A stretch of 64,000 nucleotides of DNA. It comes from Hyphomonadaceae bacterium (GTDB lineage Bacteria > Pseudomonadota > Alphaproteobacteria > Caulobacterales > Hyphomonadaceae). Shown here piece after piece: positions 32,886 through 59,664 of the stretch (positions are counted from its first letter, which is position 1; each line of letters opens with the position of its first letter). The stretch spans positions 248,001-312,000 of the forward strand of contig JANSYM010000005.1 in NCBI GenBank assembly GCA_024742355.1. The letters are read 5' to 3'. The position numbers were made by a program, and so were the translations under genes. The notes below the pieces were generated by a model that ran no database searches, was not told where the DNA came from, and was given only the letters and a program-made list of their open reading frames with translations.

Positions 32886-33401
32886 ATGACCGACACCCCC
32901 GATATGGCAACTCAGCCGCAAGACAATGCCCAACCGCAAGGGCCCGCTATTCGCGTCCTCAGCCAGTATATCAAGGACCTGTCCTTCGAAAACCCGGGCG
33001 CCACGGTACAGGATCAGCCAAATATCGAGCTTGGTATCGATGTCGGCGCTGCCCCGCGCCAGGGCCAGGAAGGTGTATTCGAAGTCACATTGAAGCTGAA
33101 AGCCCGTGCCGGCACCGAGACGACCGCGCTGTTCCTGATCGAAATGGATTATTCGGGCCTGTTCCATCTCCAGGGTTTCGCGCAAGCCGACATGGAACCC
33201 ATCCTGCTGATCGAATGCCCGCGCATCCTGTTCCCGTTCGCGCGTCGCATCATTGCGGATATTTCAGCCGAAGGCGGTTTCCCACCGCTACGGATTGACC
33301 CTGTCGATTTCGGGGCGCTTTACAATTCTCAGAAACAGCGGGCGGCCCAGGCTGCTGCGCAACAGCAAGCCGCGCCGGAGTCGACCGAACCTCAGGCGTA
33401 G
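32886..33401 (+). CDS. secB: protein-export chaperone SecB
   Basis: YIKDLSFENPG; PRILFPFARRIIADISAEGGFPPLRIDPVDF. Confidence 0.96.
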   Translation: MTDTPDMATQPQDNAQPQGPAIRVLSQYIKDLSFENPGATVQDQPNIELGIDVGAAPRQGQEGVFEVTLKLKARAGTETTALFLIEMDYSGLFHLQGFAQADMEPILLIECPRILFPFARRIIADISAEGGFPPLRIDPVDFGALYNSQKQRAAQAAAQQQAAPESTEPQA

Positions 33402-35497: not shown

Positions 35498-36087
35498 GCC
35501 GTCAACACCTCGCGCACGCGCAAATAATCGAGCAGAGGCAACAGCGGGAGGCCGAGAATGGAAAAATAATCGCCCTCGATTTGAGAGAATAATTGTGCCC
35601 CGCGACTTTCCAATTGATAGGCGCCAACAGTCGTCAGCAACGCCTCTCCGCACTCTTGTATGTAACCATCTATGAAAGTATCACTCAGTGTACGGATTGT
35701 AAGTTTGGGGCGCGCCAGGAAGCGCCAAACAGGCTCGCCATTTTCCGCCACGACAATCGCGGTTTCCAGGTAGTGGGATTTGCCTGATAGCTTTCGCAAA
35801 TGGTTTCTCGCCCTGTCGAGATCGGCGGGCTTGTCGAAGGCTTCATCCCCCAGATTGAGCATCTGGTCTCCGCCAATCACCAGACCTGGTGTCGAGCGCG
35901 ATACTTTCACAGCCTTCATTTCGGCCAGCTGCATAGCCTGGTCTCGTACGCTCAATCCTTCAGCGCGCATGGCGATTTTCGCCGCATCCTCGTCGACATT
36001 GGGTTTGATTGAAACGGCATCCACGCCGGCACCAGCAAGAAGGGCGCGGCGGCTGGCGCTGCCAGAAGCCAGAATAATGTCCAGCAT
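35494..36087 (-). CDS. maf: Maf-like nucleotide pyrophosphatase
   Basis: LASGSASRRALLAGAG; GGDQML. Confidence 0.92.
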   Translation of the reverse strand: MLDIILASGSASRRALLAGAGVDAVSIKPNVDEDAAKIAMRAEGLSVRDQAMQLAEMKAVKVSRSTPGLVIGGDQMLNLGDEAFDKPADLDRARNHLRKLSGKSHYLETAIVVAENGEPVWRFLARPKLTIRTLSDTFIDGYIQECGEALLTTVGAYQLESRGAQLFSQIEGDYFSILGLPLLPLLDYLRVREVLTA

Positions 36088-36911
36088 CAGATGAAGCCCC
36101 GTCTTTCATTAAGCTTGTTGAGAATGGCCGCGGCGGTTTCCTCGACGCTGCGCCGCGAGACGTCGATGACCGGCCATTTATTGCGTTGGAACAGGCGACT
36201 GGCTTCGGTCACTTCGGCGCGCACCGCTTCCTCATCGACATAATTGGTTTTCGTTTGCTCATTCAGCGACATCAAACGCTGGCCGCGAATCTGGAGCAGG
36301 CGCTCCACTCCGATTTTCAGGCCGACCACCATTGGATGCTTTAATTCCTCAACGAGGGACGGGAGCGGAATGCCGGGCACGAGCGGAATGTTGCCCGCTT
36401 TCACGCCGCGATTGGCAAGATAGACACAAGTCGGCGTCTTCGACGTTCGACTGACTCCAAGCAGGACAACATCGGCATCGACCAGGCCGGTAACATTCTG
36501 GCCGTCATCATGATTAAGCGCAAAGTCGATCGCCGAGATGCGTTTGAAATAATCCTCGTTCAGCGCGTGCTGGCTGGCAATTTTCTCGCTCGCCGCGATG
36601 CCGAGATGGCGCGAGAGCATATGGATTGAGGGGTCCAGGACCGGAAGGGTCTGAATGCCGCGCTGGCGGCAGAACTGTTCCAGCTTGCGCCGCAGATTCT
36701 CGTCTGAAACCGTGTACCAGACGACGCCCGGGGCAGCTTCAATCTCGGCCATCACCCGATCGAGCTGACGTTCGGACCGGACCAGGTAATAATTGTGCTC
36801 CAGCGGAATGGTGCGGTCGAACTGCGCGGCCGCAGCGCGCATGACCGCGTTCAACGTCTCGCCCGTGGAATCCGAGACAAGGTGTACATTGAAATAGATA
36901 GAAAGCCGCAT
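36087..36911 (-). CDS. ppsR: pyruvate,water dikinase / PPDK regulatory protein (DUF299)
   Basis: HLVSDSTGETLNAVMRAA; GVSRTSKTPTCVYLANRG. Confidence 0.93.
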   Translation of the reverse strand: MRLSIYFNVHLVSDSTGETLNAVMRAAAAQFDRTIPLEHNYYLVRSERQLDRVMAEIEAAPGVVWYTVSDENLRRKLEQFCRQRGIQTLPVLDPSIHMLSRHLGIAASEKIASQHALNEDYFKRISAIDFALNHDDGQNVTGLVDADVVLLGVSRTSKTPTCVYLANRGVKAGNIPLVPGIPLPSLVEELKHPMVVGLKIGVERLLQIRGQRLMSLNEQTKTNYVDEEAVRAEVTEASRLFQRNKWPVIDVSRRSVEETAAAILNKLNERRGFI

Positions 36912-37261
36912 GACCGCCCTGATTTAATTCACATGTCCTGTGCCGGAAGGGATGGAATTCGACAAGCCCTGTGGATGAATTGTGGATAAGCCGATTGTGC
37001 CCCGAATCCGACTCTGAATCGCACAAGTGACCGAATCTGACTCATCCGGTTTCCGACCTGTTCCAGACATCTGTTACGCGCCATGGTTAACCAATTATTT
37101 ACAATTTTTTCAGACCGTTAACAAAGTGTTAACCTTGCACCGATCTGGGGACAAGCTGTGGATACAGCAGGGACAAATGACCTCACCTGATGTTTTCCAC
37201 GAGACTCCGGTCTTAATAATGATAAGTCGTTTCGAGTTTGGTTTTGGGTTTGAAAATTCTA
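36912..37261. other. oriC: putative chromosomal replication origin
   Basis: DnaA-box-like 9-mers TGTGGATGA (36970), TGTGGATAA (36981), TGTGGATAC (37157); AT-rich 37084-37135; CtrA-type site; GANTC cluster; next to hemE. Confidence 0.8.
37118..37133. promoter_or_regulatory. CtrA-type binding site TTAA-N7-TTAAC
   Basis: TTAACAAAGTGTTAAC; a second near-match TTAA-CCAATTA-TTTAC at 37087-37102. Confidence 0.65.
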
Positions 37262-38305
37262 ATGGCTGAGTCGCGTTCATCACGTTTTCTGAAAGTGCTT
37301 TCTGGCACCCCCACGTCTCCCGTACCCATCTGGATGATGCGACAAGCCGGACGGCATTTGCCTGAATATCTCGAGCTGAGATCGCGGGCGAAAGACTTTC
37401 TCGATTTTTGCTATTCTCCGTCCATGGCAGCCGAAGCCACACTGCAACCCATTCGCCGATACGATATGGATGCGGCGATCCTGTTTGCCGATATTCTCCT
37501 CATTCTCGATGCCATTGGTCTAGATGTACGGTTCGAGAAAGGTGTGGGACCGATCGTCGAAACTGTGAAAGATGAAAGCGATCTCCGGCGCGTTCCTATG
37601 GAAAAGGCGGTTCAGAGATTGTCGCCCGTTTATGAAACAGTAGATCGGGTTCGCTCAAAACTAGATCCAGACAAAGGACTGATCGGATTTTGCGGGGCGC
37701 CCTGGACTGTAGCGCTCTATGCGATTGAAGGGCGCGGCGGAACGGACAAAAGTACAGCCCGCGGATGGGGGTACTCAAATCCGGATCTTCTAAACAAGCT
37801 GCTCGATCTGATCATTGAGGCGAGTGCGCAATATCTGGCGGAACAGGTGAAGGCCGGCGCAGATGCATTGATGATCTTCGAATCCTGGGCAGAGGGTTTG
37901 CCATCGGACCTGTTCCAAACTCTGGTAATCGACCCGAATGCGCGGCTGGTTCAGCGGCTTCGAGATATGGGTATTTCTGTGCCGATTATCGGATTTCCAC
38001 GCGGCGCCGCGACCATGTTGAAATCGTACACATCACAGGTGGCGGTGAATGGCGTGGGTCTCGATACGGCGATTGATCCTGGGCATATTGCTGGCGCGGT
38101 GCCGCAAAATATGGCGGTGCAAGGTCATCTCGATCCTCTTTTATTGATCGCTGGCGGCGATGCGATGGATGCGCGGGTTCGAGAATTACTCGCTGCATAT
38201 TCGGGCCGGCCACACATTTTCAATCTCGGCCATGGTGTCCGGCCGGAAACGCCGATTGCACATGTTGAGCGCGTCGTTGAACTCGTCCGGGAAGGGGCGC
38301 AATAG
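37262..38305 (+). CDS. hemE: uroporphyrinogen decarboxylase
   Basis: PVPIWMMRQAGRHLPEYLELR; GFCGAPWTVALYAIEG; FNLGHGVRPETP. Confidence 0.96.
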   Translation: MAESRSSRFLKVLSGTPTSPVPIWMMRQAGRHLPEYLELRSRAKDFLDFCYSPSMAAEATLQPIRRYDMDAAILFADILLILDAIGLDVRFEKGVGPIVETVKDESDLRRVPMEKAVQRLSPVYETVDRVRSKLDPDKGLIGFCGAPWTVALYAIEGRGGTDKSTARGWGYSNPDLLNKLLDLIIEASAQYLAEQVKAGADALMIFESWAEGLPSDLFQTLVIDPNARLVQRLRDMGISVPIIGFPRGAATMLKSYTSQVAVNGVGLDTAIDPGHIAGAVPQNMAVQGHLDPLLLIAGGDAMDARVRELLAAYSGRPHIFNLGHGVRPETPIAHVERVVELVREGAQ

Positions 38306-40161: not shown

Positions 40162-41484
40162 ATGGCGATGCGCCGGGACACAATATGTGCTCTGGCAAGC
40201 GGCCATCCGCCCGCGGCCATTTCCGTGATCCGGGTTTCCGGCCCGGAGACCACAAGCATCATCGCTGAGCGTTTATCAGTGTCGCAATTGAAGCCGCGAC
40301 ATGCGACGCTGGTCGAGTTGAGATCTGAATCCGGTGATCAAATTGATTCCGGCCTCGCGGTCTTCATGCTTGGCCCTGCGAGCTATACCGGCGAAGACAC
40401 GCTGGAAATCTCGCTCCACGGCGGACGGATGATCACCGAACTGGCGCTGCAATCGATCATGTCCGCGGGCGCGCGCCTGGCCGAGCCTGGAGAGTTCACC
40501 CGCCGCGCATTCGAGGCCGGAAAGCTCGATCTCACGCGCGCCGAAGCGGTTGCGGACCTGATTGATGCTGAAAGCGAGGCCCAACTCGACCAGGCTTTGA
40601 AGCAAATGGATGGCGCGCTTGAAACGCTTTATTCCGGTTGGCGCGAAGACCTGACAGAAACGCTGGCGCTCCTCGAGGCGAGTATCGATTTTCCCGATGA
40701 GGAAGATGCGCCCGAACGAGTCGACGCCCCGGTTCGGCAAAAGCTCGAGAATTTGAAGTCGGCCCTGCAACAGGCGCTCGCCGACGGCAATGTGACCGAA
40801 CGTATTCGCGACGGATTCCGAATTGCCATTCTCGGCAAACCGAATGCCGGGAAGTCCACACTTCTCAATCAACTCGCCAAGCGCGAAGCGGCGATTGTCA
40901 CCGACATACCGGGTACGACCCGTGATGTGGTCGAAGTCCGACTGACCATGGGCGGATATCTGGTGTGGGTTTCGGACACAGCCGGACTTCGCGAAACGCA
41001 CGATGTGGTCGAAGCCGAAGGCGTGCGCCGGGCCTTGAAAGCGGGTGATGAAGCCGACCTTCGGATCTGGCTTCATGATGCCCGCGAACCGTTTCGGTCA
41101 GACCGGGTGCGACCGGGCGATCTCGTGGTTTCCAACAAGTCGGACCTGGTCGACCCAAAAAGTGTTTCACGTGAAACATTGGCGATTTCTGCGAAGGCCG
41201 GAGACGGCATTGATGAGGTCGAGGCGGAAATTGTGGCCCGGATTTCGAGCCTGACAAAGAATGTCACCGCGCCCATCATCACGCGGGCCCGGCATCGCCA
41301 GGGAATTGAGAGGGCTCTGGCGCATCTCGAAACCGCATCTCAAAATCTGGACAATGGCATCGGCGCCGAACTTGTTTCGGAAGATGTGCGCCTCGCCAGC
41401 CGTGACCTCGGAACTTTGACCGGCCATGTCGATCCAGAGTCTGTTCTCGGCGCTGTGTTTTCTTCCTTCTGCATCGGTAAATAG
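40162..41484 (+). CDS. mnmE: tRNA uridine-5-carboxymethylaminomethyl modification GTPase MnmE
   Basis: LGKPNAGKSTLLNQLAKREAAIVTDIPGTTRD; C-terminal FCIGK. Confidence 0.97.
   Translation: MAMRRDTICALASGHPPAAISVIRVSGPETTSIIAERLSVSQLKPRHATLVELRSESGDQIDSGLAVFMLGPASYTGEDTLEISLHGGRMITELALQSIMSAGARLAEPGEFTRRAFEAGKLDLTRAEAVADLIDAESEAQLDQALKQMDGALETLYSGWREDLTETLALLEASIDFPDEEDAPERVDAPVRQKLENLKSALQQALADGNVTERIRDGFRIAILGKPNAGKSTLLNQLAKREAAIVTDIPGTTRDVVEVRLTMGGYLVWVSDTAGLRETHDVVEAEGVRRALKAGDEADLRIWLHDAREPFRSDRVRPGDLVVSNKSDLVDPKSVSRETLAISAKAGDGIDEVEAEIVARISSLTKNVTAPIITRARHRQGIERALAHLETASQNLDNGIGAELVSEDVRLASRDLGTLTGHVDPESVLGAVFSSFCIGK
41163..41178. promoter_or_regulatory. parS: parS centromere site (in mnmE)
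   Basis: TGTTTCACGTGAAACA exact palindrome. Confidence 0.95.
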
Positions 41485-41538: not shown

Positions 41539-43419
41539 ATGCAAGCAGATATGAAATTCGATGTCATCGTGGTCGGTGGCGGCCACGCTGGGTGCGAAGC
41601 CGCATCCGCGGCGGCGCGCATGGGCGCGACGACGGCGCTGATCACCCACAAAATCGAAACCATCGGTGAAATGTCTTGCAATCCGGCGATTGGCGGCTTG
41701 GGCAAAGGCCATTTGGTGCGCGAGATTGATGCGTTGGATGGATTGATGGGTCGCGTCTCGGACAAATCCGGCATCCAGTTCCGCATGCTCAATCGCTCAA
41801 AAGGGCCAGCGGTCTGGGGACCGCGCGCGCAGATTGATCGCAAACTCTATCGCAAAGCGATGCAGGCAGAGATCCTTCATCATGAGAATCTCTCCGTCGT
41901 TGAGGATGGTGTTGAGGATCTGAGCGTCTCGGGCGAAAAAGTGTCGGGCGTTATTGGCGAGTCCGGAACGGAATATACTGCATCGGCGGTCGTCATCACG
42001 ACGGGGACATTCCTGAAAGGGATTATCCATCGCGGCGCCGAACGCATTCCGGCCGGGCGCGTCGGAGAAAAACCGGCCATTGGTTTGGCGGAGCGCCTAT
42101 ATGCGCTCGAGCTCCCGATGGGGCGATTGAAAACCGGAACGCCGGCGCGGCTGAACGGTGAGACCATTGATTGGGACCCGCTCGAGAAACAACCCGCCGA
42201 TGACGATCCGATCCCGTTTTCGTATCTGACGGACCGTATCGAGGTGCCGCAGGTTTCATGTGGGATCACCTTCACCAATCCAGAGACGCACGAGATTATC
42301 GCGGAGAATATCGAGCAATCCGCAGTCTATTCCGGTGCCATTGCCGGGCGCGGCCCACGCTATTGTCCGTCGATCGAAGACAAGATCCATCGCTTCGCTG
42401 ACAAAACGCGCCATCAGATTTTCCTGGAACCAGAAGGCCTCGATGATCCGACGGTCTATCCAAATGGGATTTCCACGTCGCTTCCACGCGATGTCCAGGA
42501 TGCTTTCATTCGAAAGATCGAGGGGCTCGAAAATGTCGAGATCCTCGAATACGGCTATGCGATCGAATATGATTATGTCGATCCGCGCGCTCTGGACTCC
42601 GGACTCCAGGTGAAAGCGCTTCCCGGATTGTTCCTCGCCGGACAAATCAATGGCACGACAGGATATGAAGAAGCAGGCGCGCAGGGCCTCGTCGCCGGAT
42701 TGAACGCGGTCCGTTATGGGCGCGGTGATGACAATGCGCTGTTTGATCGGGCCGAGGCGTATATCGGAGTCCTGATCGATGATCTCGTGACGCGCGGTGT
42801 GACGGAACCCTATCGAATGTTTACATCCCGCGCCGAGTATCGGCTGTCACTGCGGTCTGACAATGCCGACCAACGCCTGACACAGCGCGGCATTGATCTC
42901 GGCTTGGTCGGAAAAACCCGCGCCGAAATGTTTCACGTGAAACATGCGGCGCTGAAATCCGGACGGGATTTGATGCAATCGGTTCAGATGACACCCAATG
43001 AGGCGCAAAAGCTCGGATGGAAAGTCAATCAGGATGGCCAGCGCCGGAGCGCCTGGGAATATCTTGCCTATCCAAGCATTGATATGGCGGCGATTGAATC
43101 GGCCTTCCCGGAGATTGCCGCCCTGGATGGGATGGTCAAAACGCAACTCGAAATCGAGGCGATGTATGCCGGCTATATCGAGCGCCAGAAGGATGATGTC
43201 GAAGCCTTGCGCCGCGAAGAGGCTTTGGCGCTTCCGAGTGATCTTGATTATGCCGCGGTCGGCGGCCTGACCAATGAAGTCCGCGCGAAACTGGAATTGA
43301 TCCGGCCGGCGACATTGGGGCAGGCGGGTCGGATTGAAGGGATAACGCCCGGCGCATTAACGGCGCTGCTCGCCTATGTTCGCCGCCGCCCTGAACGAAA
43401 GACGTCCGCCCATGCGTGA
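41539..43419 (+). CDS. mnmG: tRNA uridine-5-carboxymethylaminomethyl modification enzyme MnmG
   Basis: [42 protein letters not shown]. Confidence 0.97.
42929..42944. promoter_or_regulatory. parS: parS centromere site (in mnmG)
   Basis: TGTTTCACGTGAAACA exact palindrome. Confidence 0.95.
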
Positions 43420-44044
43420 CAAAGACGGATTCGGGCCCGAAGACCTGAAAGACCATGTCGATGTTTCACGTGAAACACTCGAGCGGCTTCAGATCATTGT
43501 TGGTGAGCTCGACGCCTGGCGCCGCAAGACCAATCTGATTGGCCCTTCCGAATTCGGCCGGGTCTGGCGTCGACACGTCCTCGATTCTATTCAGCTCCAT
43601 CCGCACGTTCCGACTTCAGGACATACGATTGATCTCGGATCAGGGTCGGGATTTCCGGCCTTGATACTCGCCGCGTGCGCTACGGACCCGGCCGCAAAAT
43701 TCTCCTTAGTGGAGAGTGTTGGAAAGAAGTGCGCCTTTCTGCGCGCGGCGATCGAAGCGGCGAATTTGCCCGCCAAAGTCATCCAGGGCCGGGTCGAAGC
43801 GATTAAGCCCGTCCAAGCCGATTGCATAACGGCGCGGGCCTTCGCGCCATTACCGAAATTAATCAATTATGCCGCCCCCTGGTTTGAGAATGGCGCGTAT
43901 GGCGTGATTCCGAAAGGTCGACGCTGGGAAGAGGAATTGACGGATGCCTTGGAATCTTGGAGATTCGCCTATGAAGCGATTCCCAGCGTGAGCGGGGATG
44001 GGGCTATATTGAAAATCTCGGAGGTTTCACGTGTCGAACGCTAA
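43412..44044 (+). CDS. rsmG: 16S rRNA (guanine527-N7)-methyltransferase RsmG
   Basis: [24 protein letters not shown]. Confidence 0.95.
43462..43477. promoter_or_regulatory. parS: parS centromere site (in rsmG)
   Basis: TGTTTCACGTGAAACA exact palindrome. Confidence 0.95.
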
Positions 44045-44843
44045 CACACGCATACTCGCGATCGCCAATCAGAAAGGCGGTGTCGGGAAGACGACGACTT
44101 CGATTAATCTCGGCACGGCGCTCGCCGCCGTCGGTCGAAAAGTCCTGGTCATCGATTTCGATGCGCAGGGAAATGCCTCGACTGGACTCGGAATTACGCG
44201 CCCCGAGCGTCAGCTGACGACTTATGACGTGGTTGTCCACAACGAATTTCTGGGGGACGCGGTCCTCAATACATTGGTACCGCGCCTCGATATTGTCCCT
44301 GGTGACGAGAACCTCGCTGGCGTTGAAACCGAGCTTTCAACCGACCCACACCGGTCTTATCGACTGCGCAATGCATTGCGCAAATATGTCGACGAGGCCG
44401 GCGGCCGGGGTCTGACCGAGTATGACTATATCCTGATCGATTGCCCGCCGTCTTTGTCAGCCCTGACGATCAATGCGATGACGGCAGCCGACTCCCTGCT
44501 GGTGCCGCTGCAATGTGAATTCCTCGCCCTCGAAGGTCTGAGCCAACTTCTGAAAACTGTGGAACTGGTACGCTCGGGCCTCAATCCGGATCTGGATATT
44601 CAGGGCGTGGTCCTGACTATGTATGATCGCCGTAACAATCTGTCGGACCAGGTCGCTGATGAGGTCCGCTCGGTTCTGGGCGCGAAAGTCTATAATACGG
44701 TCATTCCACGCAATGTGCGTTTGTCCGAAGCGCCGAGTTTCGGCAAGCCGGCTTTGCTTTATGATTATCGGTGCCCGGGTAGTGAAGCCTATATTCGTCT
44801 TGCATCGGAAATGTTGAAGCGCGAACGCGCGTTGCGAGCCTAA
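44031..44843 (+). CDS. parA: chromosome partitioning ATPase ParA
   Basis: IANQKGGVGKTTTSINLGTALA; GTG start. Confidence 0.97.
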   Translation: MSNANTRILAIANQKGGVGKTTTSINLGTALAAVGRKVLVIDFDAQGNASTGLGITRPERQLTTYDVVVHNEFLGDAVLNTLVPRLDIVPGDENLAGVETELSTDPHRSYRLRNALRKYVDEAGGRGLTEYDYILIDCPPSLSALTINAMTAADSLLVPLQCEFLALEGLSQLLKTVELVRSGLNPDLDIQGVVLTMYDRRNNLSDQVADEVRSVLGAKVYNTVIPRNVRLSEAPSFGKPALLYDYRCPGSEAYIRLASEMLKRERALRA

Positions 44844-44846
44844 TCA

Positions 44847-45767
44847 ATGTCGCCAGCCAAACAAAGCCGTCTTGGGAAGGGACTCTCTGCGCTGATTGGA
44901 GAGGTCGAGGGTGTCGGTCTTGCCGCGCCAGATGAGACCAACGAGTCTGGTTTCACCGGATCGAGTGGCACGCCGGTCGATGAGTACAAATTAGCGGACA
45001 TTCGTCCGAACCCGGCCCAGCCGCGACGCACTTTTTCCGAACAAGAGCTCGACGAACTCGCAAATTCGATCAAACAACGCGGCGTCTTGCAGGCAATCAT
45101 CCTTCGCCCCGATCCGGACGCGCCAAATCAGTATCAGATTGTCGCCGGCGAACGCCGTTGGCGCGCCGCGCAACGCGCGGGCCTGACAACCATTCCAGCC
45201 GTCGTTCGCGATATGGACGAGCTTCAATTGCTGGAAGTCGGGATTATCGAGAACGTTCAGCGCGAAGACCTCAACCCGATTGAAGAAGCCGAAGCCTATG
45301 GCGCACTGATCAAGCGCTTTGGCCGGACCCAGGAGAACCTGGCTGAGAGTGTCGGCAAGTCGCGCGCGCATATCGCGAATACGCTGCGCCTACTCAATCT
45401 CGGAGAATCGGCGCGCGAGCATTTGCGCCAGGGCCGGATTTCGGCCGGGCATGCCCGCGCTGCACTCGGCGCATCGGACCCCGATCCGGTCGTCGATATG
45501 GCGGTCGCAAAGTCCATGTCGGTGCGCGAGGTCGAGGCGCTGGTGAAACGCCTCAAGGATGGCAATTCGCTCGATGCGGTGGCCAGCAAAGTCAATCAGA
45601 TGGACAAGGACGTCGACACCGAGGCGCTGGAAAGCGACCTTGCCCGTGTTCTGGGTCTGAAAGTCGACATTCGACAGGGCGCCAAAGGCGGCGAATTGCG
45701 CATCAAGTATGGCGATCTCGAACAATTGGACGAATTGTGTCGCCGGCTGACAGCTAAGCGCGGATAA
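44847..45767 (+). CDS. parB: chromosome partitioning protein ParB
   Basis: GLGKGLSALIG-like start, IRPNPAQPRRTF, VAGERRWRAAQRAGL, ENVQREDLNPIEEA. Confidence 0.97.
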   Translation: MSPAKQSRLGKGLSALIGEVEGVGLAAPDETNESGFTGSSGTPVDEYKLADIRPNPAQPRRTFSEQELDELANSIKQRGVLQAIILRPDPDAPNQYQIVAGERRWRAAQRAGLTTIPAVVRDMDELQLLEVGIIENVQREDLNPIEEAEAYGALIKRFGRTQENLAESVGKSRAHIANTLRLLNLGESAREHLRQGRISAGHARAALGASDPDPVVDMAVAKSMSVREVEALVKRLKDGNSLDAVASKVNQMDKDVDTEALESDLARVLGLKVDIRQGAKGGELRIKYGDLEQLDELCRRLTAKRG

Positions 45768-53975: not shown

Positions 53976-56546
53976 CTATTCCAGCGAGCGGGCAATCATC
54001 TCGATCTCGAAACACTCGATCCGGTCGCCTTCGCGGATGTCTTCATATTTCTCGAACGCCATGCCGCATTCCATGCCATTGGTGACTTCTGGGACTTCAT
54101 CCTTGAAGCGTTTCAAAGTCTTGAGCATGCCTTCATGGATCACGACATCGTCGCGTAGAAGGCGAACACCACAGCCGCGCTTGACCACGCCCTCGGTGAC
54201 CTTACAGCCAGCAACCTTGCCGACCTTGGTGATGTTGAAGACTTCCAGAATGTCTGCATAGCCGATGAAGGTTTCTTTCTTCTCTGGCTCGAGCATCCCG
54301 GAAAGAGAGGCTTTCACATCATCGATCAGCTCATAGATGATCGAATAATAGCGAATCTCGACACCTTCTTTCTCCGCCAGTTCGCGTGCCTGCTTGTTGG
54401 CGCGAACGTTGAAGGCAAAGACCGGCGCACCGGATGATTGGGCGAGCAGGATGTCGCTTTCGGAAATACCGCCGGCGGCGCCATAGACGACATTCGCCCG
54501 GACTTCTTCGGTGGAGAGGTTTTCCAGCGATTGTGTAATCGCTTCGACAGATCCCTGCACATCGCCTTTCAGGACAATTGGCAAATCCTTGGTGTCGGCC
54601 GAACCGTCTTTCAGGCTGGTCATGAACTGTTCCAGAGACGCGCGTTGGGTGGCGACGCCTTGTTTCTGGCGTTTCATGCGCTGGCGATATTCGGTGATTT
54701 CCCGGGCCCGCGCTTCGCTGTCGACAACGTTGAACGCATCGCCAGGTTCCGGCGTGCCATCCAGGCCAAGAATCTCGGCCGGCATTGATGGCACGGCCTC
54801 TTTCATCTGCTGGTTGCGTTCATTGACCAGTGCGCGAACTTTGCCCCACTGCGCGCCGGCAACGACAATGTCGCCCCGCTTCAGGGTTCCGCGCTTGACC
54901 AGAACGGTCGCAACCGGGCCGCGACCCTTGTCGAGTTGCGATTCGACCACGATGCCGTCCGCTGGACGTTTCGGGTTGGCTTTCAGTTCCAGAAGTTCCG
55001 CCTGCAGCGTGATGGCTTCAGTCAGGTCATCAAGGCCGGTTTTCTTCAGCGCCGACACTTCGATCGCCTGAACTTCACCGCCCATGGCTTCCACCTGGAT
55101 ATCGTGCTGCAGCAAGTCGGTGAGAACCCGATTGGCGTCGGCGTCCTGCAGATCGACCTTGTTGACCGCAACGATGATCGGAACTTCCGCCGCCTTGGCG
55201 TGTTTGATCGCCTCGATGGTCTGCGGCATGACGGAATCATTGGCCGCAACGACCAGAATGACGATGTCCGTAACGTTCGCGCCGCGGGCACGCATGGCAG
55301 AGAATGCGGCGTGGCCAGGCGTATCCAGGAAGCTGATCTTGTCGTCAGACTTCAGCTGGACCTGATAGGCCCCGATATGCTGGGTAATGCCGCCGGCTTC
55401 ACCCGCCACGACATCGGTCGATCGCAGCGCGTCGAGCAGCGAGGTCTTGCCGTGGTCGACATGGCCCATAATCGTCACGATAGGCGGACGGCCTTCGAGA
55501 TCCTTCGGATCATCCTCGACGCCTTCCAGGCCGATTTCCACGTCAGCTTCAGACACGCGTTTGACGGTATGACCAAACTCTTCCGCGATCAGCTCCGCTG
55601 TGTCGGCATCGATAATGTCATTGCCGCGCAGCATTTCGCCTTGCTGCATCATGAATTTCACAACGTCGGCGACGCGCTCATTCATCCGGCCGGCAAGATC
55701 CTGCAGCGTGATGGTCTCTGGCAGGGTCACCTCAACAGAGACTTTTTCGCTCGGGTCATTGCCCATGCGGCGTTCACGTTCCCGCTCGCGGGCACGCTTC
55801 ACAGAGGCGAGAGAGCGCTGGCGATCACCATCGTCTCCGAGCGCCGATGCGATGGTGAGTTTTCCGCGGCGCCGTTTGGAGTCGCCACCGCGTCCGCCAC
55901 GTCCGCCGCCCTGATCGCGTCGGCCGCGATCGTCGCGGTCATTGCGTCCGCCCTTGCGTCGCCCGCCGGTTGAGCTGGCAGCGGCTTCAAGGTCGGCCTG
56001 GCTCGGAGCGGCATCTCGTTTCTTGCCGCCGCGGTCTGGACGTGCGGTCTTGGTCTCGGTCTCAGCCTTTTTCTTGGCCTCGGCTTCAGCTTTCTTGCGC
56101 TCAACCTCTTCGGTCTTGCGGCGCGCTTCGGCTTCTTCGCGCTCTTTTTCTTTTTGCTTCTGCGCGTGCTGCTTCTCTTCGAGCGCCTTGGTCCGAGCGT
56201 TTTGCTTTTCCTGCTCAGCCTTGCGCGACTCTTCGGCCTTCTTGCGCTGCAACAGCACTTTCTGGCGCTGGATCAGTTCTTCTTCGGTGATCCCGAGTTT
56301 CGCGGCGGCGGCCGCCAGTTTCGATTGCGGCTTGCCAGACGCAGGCGCCTTCTTGCCGCCTCCGGATGATTTGCCAGCACCAGGCTTGGATTGCGCCCCG
56401 ACCGTGCGGCGCTTTTTGGTTTCGACAACAACCTGTTTCGAACGGCCATGGCTGAAGGTCTGCTTCACGGTCCCGGATCCTGATCCGCGTGAAACAGTAA
56501 GTGGCTTGCGTCCGCCGGTAGTACCTTTGTCTTTCGTATCGCTCAT
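53976..56546 (-). CDS. infB: translation initiation factor IF-2
   Basis: [40 protein letters not shown]. Confidence 0.97.
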
Positions 56547-56596
56547 GCGTACCCTGGTGTTTAACCTTTCATTCGAGGCGAAATCGTCCGCCCCTC

Positions 56597-57274
56597 CTAT
56601 AATTCTTTTCGTCTGCCGGAGAACCAGCCTGTCTCAGGCGCATCGCGGAATCCCGTCAGCCGCCGATAGGCGACTGAGAAGGCATCCGCAAGAGAACCGT
56701 ATTCAAGCAGCGCATGTATCACATGCTGCCGCCCAAAGGCTATGCCCAATTCAGCGGACGATAATGCGCCCGCGACGTTGACGTCTTCATATATTGCCTT
56801 GGCAAGAAAATGAACCTTGTTGCGGCCATCTTCTGCACCATCGCTTGCTTCGAGCAGCAAGCCAGGCGCCTGTTTGCGGATATAGTCGCGAACCTGGTCG
56901 AATCCAAGCACCGCGACGCCGCTCTTCTTGGCCATGCCGAGCAGGCCGAGGCAGCGCTGCAACAGTTGGCGTTCGACTTCGCTGGCCAGCCCGTCCATCG
57001 GATGAGACTTGGCTTTGAAAGCCCTCGAGAATACATCCGACTGCAAGCCGGATTCGAGCGTTTCCCGATTTGCTGTGACCCAGGCGCCACGCCCGGGCAG
57101 CTTTCCAAACCCGTCGGGTACAACAATCCCGTCCGGGCTTCGGACAAAGCGGATCAGCGCGTCGGGCGCCAGGCGCTCGCGCGTCACCGCACACTGGCGA
57201 ACAGTTTCGCCAGCGCGCGATTTTTGATGCGCCTCTAGGCGCTTGTCGCTATCATTGAGGCTCTGCGGCTTCAT
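56597..57274 (-). CDS. RNA-binding protein (YlxR/DUF448 plus L7Ae-like)
   Basis: [31 protein letters not shown]; between nusA and infB. Confidence 0.88.
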
Positions 57275-59063
57275 CGCCGCCCTCCATGAGAAGATCCTCG
57301 TCAAGATCGAGGCCTTCCAGTTCTGCCAGGATGTCTTCATCGCTGACATCCAGGGTTTCTTCGACTGCCGCCTCTTCGGTGGTGCCAGATTTTCCAAGCT
57401 CACCGAGCGCCAGCAACGCGCGCTCTTCCTCGGTGAGGTCCTGCGGCTCTTCGCCAGCCGCTTCAGCGGCCATTTCGGCTTCAAGTTGTTCCAGCGCTTC
57501 CGGCTCGACCCAACCTGCAATGACGCGGGCTTTCATGATGAAGAGCTGCGCATCGTCTTTGCGCATTTCGCCTTTCTTCAGGATACCTTCCTGCCAGACC
57601 GGCTTGCCTTCCTTATTGTTCTCGCGCCAACCGGTGAGGTCGTCCGGCACAAGTCCGGCAACATCTTCAACCGTTTTGACCTCGTTCTCGCCGAGTTTCA
57701 CAGCGAAGCCAGGCGACATGCCGTCAAGCTCCATGACCGCGTCCTCAACGCCAAGTTCAAGGCGTTTGGCATCTTGTTCAGCGGCAAGTTTCTCCAGGTA
57801 TTCGCGGGCGCGTTCCTGGATTTCAGCCGCGACTTCTTCGTCAAAGCCTTCGACTTGCATGAACTCTTCAGGCGCGATGTAGGCAATATCCTCAACCTCG
57901 CCGAAGCCTTCAGACGCGAGCAGCTGGGCCAGGGTTTCGTCAGCATCAAGCGCCGCCATGAACAGCTCGGTGCGGCGCTGGAAGTCGATCTGGTAACGCT
58001 CGGAATCGTCGCTCTCGGTAACCAGGTCGATCTGCCAACCTGTCAGTTGCGAGGCGAGCCGTACGTTCTGACCGCGGCGGCCAATGGCCAGCGGGAACTG
58101 GTCATCTGCGACCACGACTTCGACGCGGTGCTCGTCTTCATCGAGCACGACTTTCGAAACCTCTGCCGGCTGCAGTGCGTTCACGATGAAGGTCGCGTCA
58201 TCATAATTCCATGGAATGATGTCGATCTTCTCGCCGGAAAGTTCACCAACAACCGCTTGCACACGCGCCCCGCGCATACCGACACAGGCACCGACCGGAT
58301 CGATCGAGCTGTCATTCGAGATCACACCGATCTTCGCGCGTGAGCCTGCGTCACGGGCACAAGAGCGAATTTCGATCACACCTTCATAGACTTCCGGAAC
58401 CTCGGCCGCGAACAGCTTGATCATGAAGTCAGGATGCGCGCGCGACAGGAAGATCTGCGGACCTTTGATCTCGCGGCTGACTTTATAGAGATACGCCCGG
58501 ACGCGGTCATTCGGCTGGAAATTCTCACGCGGAATGCCGTCATTGCGGCGGATAATGCCTTCGGCGCGGCCCAGGTCGACGATGACGTGGCCATATTCAA
58601 CACGCTTGACGATGCCGTTAATGATCTCGCCTTCGCGGTCTTTGTACTCGTCAAACTGGCGCTGCCGTTCAGCGTCACGCACTTTCTGCATGATCACCTG
58701 TTTCGCGGTTTGCGCCGCGACACGGCCAAAGTCGAATGGCGGAAGCTCTTCCTTGATCTCGTCGCCGAGCTCGAGGCTGGCATCGATTTTCTTGGCATCC
58801 TTCAGCGTGATCTGCTGGGCAGCATCTTCCATTTCCTCTTCGGAAACGACGGTCTGAATGCGCCACAGGCTCTGTTCACCGGTCTCGTGATCGATGATCG
58901 CGCGGATATCATGTTCCTGGCCGTAACGGGACTTCGCGGCCTTTTCGATCGCTTCCTGCATCGCCTCAATGACGATGGCGCGGTCGATGGCTTTTTCTTC
59001 AGCGACCGCTTTTGCGATCTGCATGATTTCCAGCCGGTTTGCGGAAACGCCAACATTAGACAT
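57252..59063 (-). CDS. nusA: transcription termination/antitermination factor NusA
   Basis: DPVGACVGMRGARVQAVVGELSGEKIDII. Confidence 0.97.
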   Translation of the reverse strand: MSNVGVSANRLEIMQIAKAVAEEKAIDRAIVIEAMQEAIEKAAKSRYGQEHDIRAIIDHETGEQSLWRIQTVVSEEEMEDAAQQITLKDAKKIDASLELGDEIKEELPPFDFGRVAAQTAKQVIMQKVRDAERQRQFDEYKDREGEIINGIVKRVEYGHVIVDLGRAEGIIRRNDGIPRENFQPNDRVRAYLYKVSREIKGPQIFLSRAHPDFMIKLFAAEVPEVYEGVIEIRSCARDAGSRAKIGVISNDSSIDPVGACVGMRGARVQAVVGELSGEKIDIIPWNYDDATFIVNALQPAEVSKVVLDEDEHRVEVVVADDQFPLAIGRRGQNVRLASQLTGWQIDLVTESDDSERYQIDFQRRTELFMAALDADETLAQLLASEGFGEVEDIAYIAPEEFMQVEGFDEEVAAEIQERAREYLEKLAAEQDAKRLELGVEDAVMELDGMSPGFAVKLGENEVKTVEDVAGLVPDDLTGWRENNKEGKPVWQEGILKKGEMRKDDAQLFIMKARVIAGWVEPEALEQLEAEMAAEAAGEEPQDLTEEERALLALGELGKSGTTEEAAVEETLDVSDEDILAELEGLDLDEDLLMEGGDEAAEPQ

Positions 59064-59067
59064 GGCT

Positions 59068-59664
59068 TCAGGCTCCACTCTCTTGATTGTCTTCAATTGT
59101 ATCAGTTTCGGCTTCATCCGTCTCGAAGCCTTCAAAATCTTCATCGCCTGGTTGTGGCGGCAGTGTGCCGTCATCGGTGGCGGCGTCGATCAGTTCATCG
59201 GTCAGCACCAGGCTCGCCTTGGTCATTTCATGTACCTGCGCGACCAGCTCGCTGTCATCATCGAGCAGGATGGCAACGCCGTTCACATCCTCGCGCTGAA
59301 TGATACCCTGAAAGCGACGGCGCCCATCGAGCGGCATGGTCAGCTCGATCTTTGCCAGATGACCCGCCCAGCGCCCGAAATCACCGACGCGGGTGAGCGG
59401 GCGATCAATGCCGGGCGTGGAAACCTCCAGGCGATAGGCTTCGCTGATCGGGTCTTCTGCCTCCAGGGTCGGCGACAGCATGCGTGACAGGGAGGCACAG
59501 TCCTCGACATCGGTTGGCGCGCCGCCCGATTTCTCGATCATGATCTGCAGCAAGGGTCGGTTTCCGCCCATGATACGGATGCGCACAATCTCCAGGCCCA
59601 GCTCGCTGGCAAGCGGCTCGGCCATGGCTAGAATACGCTCTTCCTGTTGGCTGATCGTGATCAA
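59068..59664 (-). CDS. rimP: ribosome maturation factor RimP
   Basis: LGLEIVRIRIMGGNRPLLQIMIEK; LEVSTPGIDRPLTR. Confidence 0.95.
   Translation of the reverse strand: MITISQQEERILAMAEPLASELGLEIVRIRIMGGNRPLLQIMIEKSGGAPTDVEDCASLSRMLSPTLEAEDPISEAYRLEVSTPGIDRPLTRVGDFGRWAGHLAKIELTMPLDGRRRFQGIIQREDVNGVAILLDDDSELVAQVHEMTKASLVLTDELIDAATDDGTLPPQPGDEDFEGFETDEAETDTIEDNQESGA

Follow-up and report, generated by a model that had tools for sequence, protein, structure and literature searches.

In Caulobacter crescentus, the replication origin Cori is located between hemE and a gene of the COG1806/DUF299 family, which corresponds to ppsR (PMC1914354). This origin harbours DnaA boxes, five CtrA sites of the TTAA-N7-TTAA type, an AT-rich stretch and GANTC sites, and parS is found about 8 kb away (PMC1914354, PMC6399470, PMC3973325). 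It was also shown to use weak G- and W-boxes (PMC4468827). In Hyphomonas neptunium, marker frequency is maximal near hemE, parAB is about 7 kb from hemE and parS is perfect; the authors considered GC skew and DnaA sites as inconclusive (PMC6650430). In this species, CtrA is bound in vivo next to the origin, as indicated by a ChIP-seq signal adjoining it (PMC7200025).

Here, we analysed a window of 64,000 nucleotides (C5:248001-312000) that belongs to a 316-kb contig, C5, of a draft genome of 3.46 Mb in 18 contigs; coordinates are those of the window unless a contig or genome is named. Since close relatives by hemE are Henriciella and Hyphomonas assemblies, the window is assigned by sequence to a Henriciella-like member of the Hyphomonadaceae, within the Caulobacterales. 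H. neptunium, which belongs to the same family, is likened to it by published description, the sequence compared here being that of H. johnsonii (L077). We propose that the intergenic gap between ppsR and hemE (36912-37261) is the oriC of this bacterium; as the genome is Henriciella-like, this gap would be the orthologue of Caulobacter Cori. We give this reading a probability of about 95%. Four lines of evidence agree on it: GC skew, parS, the retained gene adjacency together with an excess of motifs in relatives, and published experiments. The sequence-only reading had already pointed to this gap as a candidate chromosome origin, with the remark that the Caulobacter and Rickettsia origins adjoin hemE. 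The published Cori is indeed found in this very gene pair (PMC1914354), and the candidacy is now supported by a cluster of DnaA boxes, the skew minimum, parS, synteny and the data on Hyphomonas and Caulobacter. An origin at hemE was to be expected; the less ordinary parts of the locus are a GANTC array and a genome-unique block close to hemE. Like a pair of CtrA-type sites, these two parts had not been named in the sequence-only reading.

On its left side, the gap is bordered by ppsR (36087-36911, minus strand; COG1806/DUF299, Kinase-PPPase, PF03618, E 4.8e-90) and on its right side by hemE, encoding uroporphyrinogen decarboxylase (37262-38305, plus strand; PF01208, E 2.2e-107). A longer hemE ORF could start from a TTG at 37238, in frame with the ATG at 37262, and the alignments of many relatives begin at residue 9, which is this ATG. 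The ATG is most likely the start, hence a gap that ends at 37261 and measures 350 bp. Its GC content is 47% vs 58% for the window. The adjacency of ppsR and hemE is retained in nearly all the alphaproteobacterial loci that we checked. Gene orientation had been described as diverging from this point, and Pfam matches agree for the genes from MltA to Kinase-PPPase (minus) and from hemE to parB (plus), with the exception of secB, which is on the plus strand (32886-33401).

The cumulative GC skew of the full contig C5 reaches its minimum at C5:284353 (36353), 0.56 kb to the left of the gap. Taken alone, this minimum is weak evidence, because the draft is split into 18 contigs, C5 extends for only 31 kb beyond the right side of the locus and, in this part, the skew reverses, falling again at about C5:303-310 kb. 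In this part of the right arm, close to the origin, infB and nusA are on the minus strand (53976-59174) and coincide with the local reversal. We also computed the skew on sampled stretches of relatives. In a closed genome of the same genus (G026), the two halves of the chromosome have skews of opposite sign, with the change from minus to plus at hemE; across 460 kb of contiguous sequence, the lowest point (2,913,278) falls within hemE, 269 bp away from its start. The skew of another closed genome (G016) is noisier, with a local minimum 11 kb from hemE.

These data also bear on the proposal that the origin is located at dnaA (C4:83751-85205) and that the gap would only hold promoters regulated by DnaA and CtrA. 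While dnaA is the usual origin landmark in many bacteria, and one exact DnaA box is found upstream of it at C4:85533, this is the single box of the locus, no parS is nearby, and in G026 about 548 kb separate dnaA from the skew switch. Together with the marker-frequency peak of H. neptunium near hemE (PMC6650430), these observations led us to reject the dnaA locus as the origin, which we regard as very improbable.

The origin reading of the gap is also consistent with the distribution of parS. Perfect sites (TGTTTCACGTGAAACA) are found three times in the whole genome, at 41163-41178 (C5:289163), 42929-42944 (C5:290929) and 43462-43477 (C5:291462), that is 4-6 kb from the gap and near parA (44031-44843, plus strand; PF13614) and parB (44847-45767, plus strand; PF02195/PF17762/PF23552), as for an origin linked to ParABS. 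The closeness of parS to the origin gap is repeated in six relatives. None of the three parS sites is intergenic: they fall inside the coding sequences of mnmE, mnmG and rsmG.

Within the gap, the three DnaA-box-like 9-mers that had been reported, TGTGGATGA (36970-36978), TGTGGATAA (36981-36989) and TGTGGATAC (37157-37165), are present as described. All three are on the minus strand, where the second is indeed an exact TTATCCACA and the first (TCATCCACA) and third (GTATCCACA) have one mismatch each. The TGTG core of the first two is invariant among 25 aligned Hyphomonadaceae, and the position of the third is conserved in relatives. A single exact box is uninformative, because TTATCCACA occurs 15 times genome-wide, fewer than the 24 copies of its reversed control; clustering is the unusual feature. 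Indeed, the window has 9 boxes with no more than one mismatch, 3 of which are in the gap and, among the 70 such boxes (0.10/kb) in 699 kb of the own genome, no other 330-bp span holds three. In dinucleotide-shuffled versions of the gap, at least three boxes are reached with a P of about 0.0005. The gap has one exact strong box and no match to the Caulobacter G-box (TGATCCACA), in contrast to Cori with its weak G- and W-boxes. Strong DnaA boxes are missing from the ppsR-hemE gaps of some relatives. Elsewhere in the genome, two exact boxes are found 225 bp apart (C13:159514 and 159739, or L018:4515 and 4740). This pair, considered as an origin, falls within a 431-aa ORF in a minus-skew stretch devoid of origin signs; we treated it as a chance occurrence, and it could possibly be a DnaA sink.

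Across the family, comparison of 38 non-redundant Hyphomonadaceae gaps with their dinucleotide shuffles gave 41 vs 3.0 DnaA boxes, 33 vs 0.5 exact CtrA sites and 207 vs 68 GANTC sites; these gaps come from related genomes and the counts are not independent events. Exact CtrA-type sites are present in 27/38 of these gaps. In the gap under study, a CtrA-type site with one mismatch (TTAACCAATTATTTA, 37087-37101, plus strand) is found where many relatives have an exact TTAA-N7-TTAA, and an exact site (TTAACAAAGTGTTAA, 37118-37132, plus strand) follows at a spacing of 31 bp, about three helical turns; many relatives have exact sites at both matching positions. The gap therefore differs from Cori, with its five CtrA sites, in having one exact and one near site. 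CtrA-type control sites thus occupy fixed positions across Hyphomonadaceae. The genome encodes CtrA (one match above the curated cut-off, 414 bits). The gap also differs from Cori in that a consensus scan, which is insensitive and concerns an accessory feature that varies among origins and that we do not take as defining, gave no IHF match on either strand.

Both CtrA-type sites lie in the AT-rich stretch (37084-37135) that had been put forward from the sequence. The stretch is real: its weakest 30- and 50-bp segments rank among the 0.03% of the window with the lowest stability, in line with the raised AT content and weak duplex of Caulobacter-type origins. This low stability makes it a candidate unwinding region; at least in part, it is a pair of CtrA-type sites, and a better module by published rules lies nearer to hemE. 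It may serve as both CtrA-type sites and unwinding region.

The better module, at 37193-37226, is the best candidate for an unwinding module by these rules. It begins with a DnaA-box-like TTTTCCACG (37193-37201, plus strand; two mismatches), also seen in aligned relatives, and ends with a conserved block, TTAATAATGATAAG (37213-37226, plus strand). We applied the published loose BUS rule, which asks for a DnaA box mismatched at no more than two positions, a spacer of at most 16 bp and at least three NAN triplets (PMC8287927). The TTTTCCACG box, an 8-bp spacer and five NAN triplets agree with it. On the box strand the triplets read GTC.TTA.ATA.ATG.ATA, a departure from the canonical 3′-GAT-5′ triplets that are most frequent beside the box of a BUS, and the gap gave no match to a simple triplet-repeat string. 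For the strand and reading direction of these triplets, we relied on what we take to be the arrangement of the B. subtilis origin, the published rule coming without a worked sequence. The module shares with the BUS of Bacillus subtilis and others a DnaA-like box followed, after 8-11 bp, by four or more triplets whose middle base is conserved, which falls within the published search rule (PMC8287927), but differs from it by the two mismatches of its box and by triplets that are mostly not the favoured 3′-GAT-5′. We thus do not class 37193-37226 as a BUS member, but as a candidate that could function in the same way.

The block TTAATAATGATAAG, a candidate non-canonical DnaA-trio element, could instead belong to the promoter of hemE or serve as a regulator site, a possibility that concerns this element only, does not conflict with the origin reading and to which we give somewhat less than even odds. 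It is positioned 36-49 bp upstream of the hemE ATG, agrees with the trio rule only in its loose NAN form, canonical 3′-GAT-5′ triplets being few, and, while nearly invariant among Hyphomonadaceae, is unrecognisable beyond the family. Against this, it has a single copy genome-wide, also when one mismatch is allowed, unlike a widely used regulator site, although a -10 element need not recur exactly; moreover, a DnaA-like box precedes it on its 5′ side at a conserved distance, some relatives have tandem boxes there, and other Caulobacterales have canonical modules, made of a box and CTACTACTT or CTATTACTA, at the corresponding place near hemE (e.g. L105, L101 and L108). A Fur-like reading of the block was considered and found no support, the block being unique in the genome. 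In the Hellea/Algimonas-type gaps (L101, L105 and L108), the unwinding-type modules that adjoin hemE combine a canonical DnaA box with CTA.CTA.CTT or CTA.TTA.CTA.

From the observed sequence elements, their conservation, skew, synteny, parS position and gene content, we infer how binding, unwinding and regulation could proceed at the proposed origin. The genome contains dnaA (with the DnaA C-terminal domain), ctrA, gcrA and a ccrM-like gene. By orthology and motif anatomy, DnaA would bind the tandem boxes (36970-36989) and the third box (37157), then spread over weaker sites close to hemE and separate the strands, with the opening located in the low-stability stretch (37084-37135) or in the module formed by the TTTTCCACG box and TTAATAATGATAAG (37193-37226). 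In non-replicating cells, phosphorylated CtrA on its two sites 31 bp apart would exclude DnaA and block initiation. ParAB would move the new origin copy through the three parS sites found at a distance of 4-6 kb, and hemimethylation of the five-GANTC array could signal that the origin was recently copied. Altogether, this provides a motif-level origin map for a marine, mostly uncultured group of Caulobacterales, in which the methylation array and the unwinding element are testable candidates.

The array is composed of five GANTC (CcrM) sites, at 37004, 37010, 37016, 37033 and 37039 (37004-37043), with a sixth site (GACTC) at 37203-37207. Cori also has GANTC sites (PMC3973325), and the compact array is a further difference between the gap and Cori. 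Five sites in 40 bp make it the tightest array in the 699 kb of own DNA that were scanned, and the triple with 6-bp spacing (GANTCNGANTCNGANTC) has one copy genome-wide, in the origin gap. This triple is also single and located at the origin in four relatives (G003, G006, G008 and G023), and a fifth (G001) has one extra copy elsewhere. Close relatives keep the same GANTC positions, distant Hyphomonadaceae have an excess at other positions, and Hellea-type loci have few or none. With a first-order Markov null, five sites in 40 bp were reached in 2/30 simulated contigs, whose GANTC sites numbered more than double those of the real sequence, so that the array is moderately rare by this measure. 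The argument for it is therefore based on conservation and the uniqueness of the triple, and by sequence we regard this tight, lineage-specific array as a less ordinary feature of the origin. On the protein side, the genome has a GcrA gene and a single CcrM-type protein with a RAMA domain, a family that among 14 control genomes is found in Caulobacter only.

The array might act on the promoter of ppsR or hemE as a GcrA/CcrM element, with no role in replication, a reading of this part only that we slightly favour. Indeed, GANTC sites are generally enriched in intergenic DNA, where they control promoters, and initiation control in C. crescentus was shown to be independent of CcrM methylation (PMC3973325). 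The tightness of the array and the uniqueness of a triple confined to the origin in several relatives weigh on the other side, but are in themselves no sign of a replication role. In Agrobacterium, CcrM depletion affects a secondary origin (PMC11514494). Since CcrM was not needed in Caulobacter, a replication role for the array is only a possibility. We consider it improbable that the array makes the Henriciella-lineage origin CcrM-sensitive, such that a hemimethylated, just-copied origin would be held inactive. Gating of this kind would be a counterpart of Dam/SeqA sequestration; in Caulobacter, no such effect of CcrM was found. Finally, the ppsR-hemE gaps of Azospirillum (L116-L129) contain 7-11 GANTC sites vs about 1 expected, with DnaA boxes at fixed positions, and dense GANTC at hemE-type gaps is thus also found far outside Caulobacterales.
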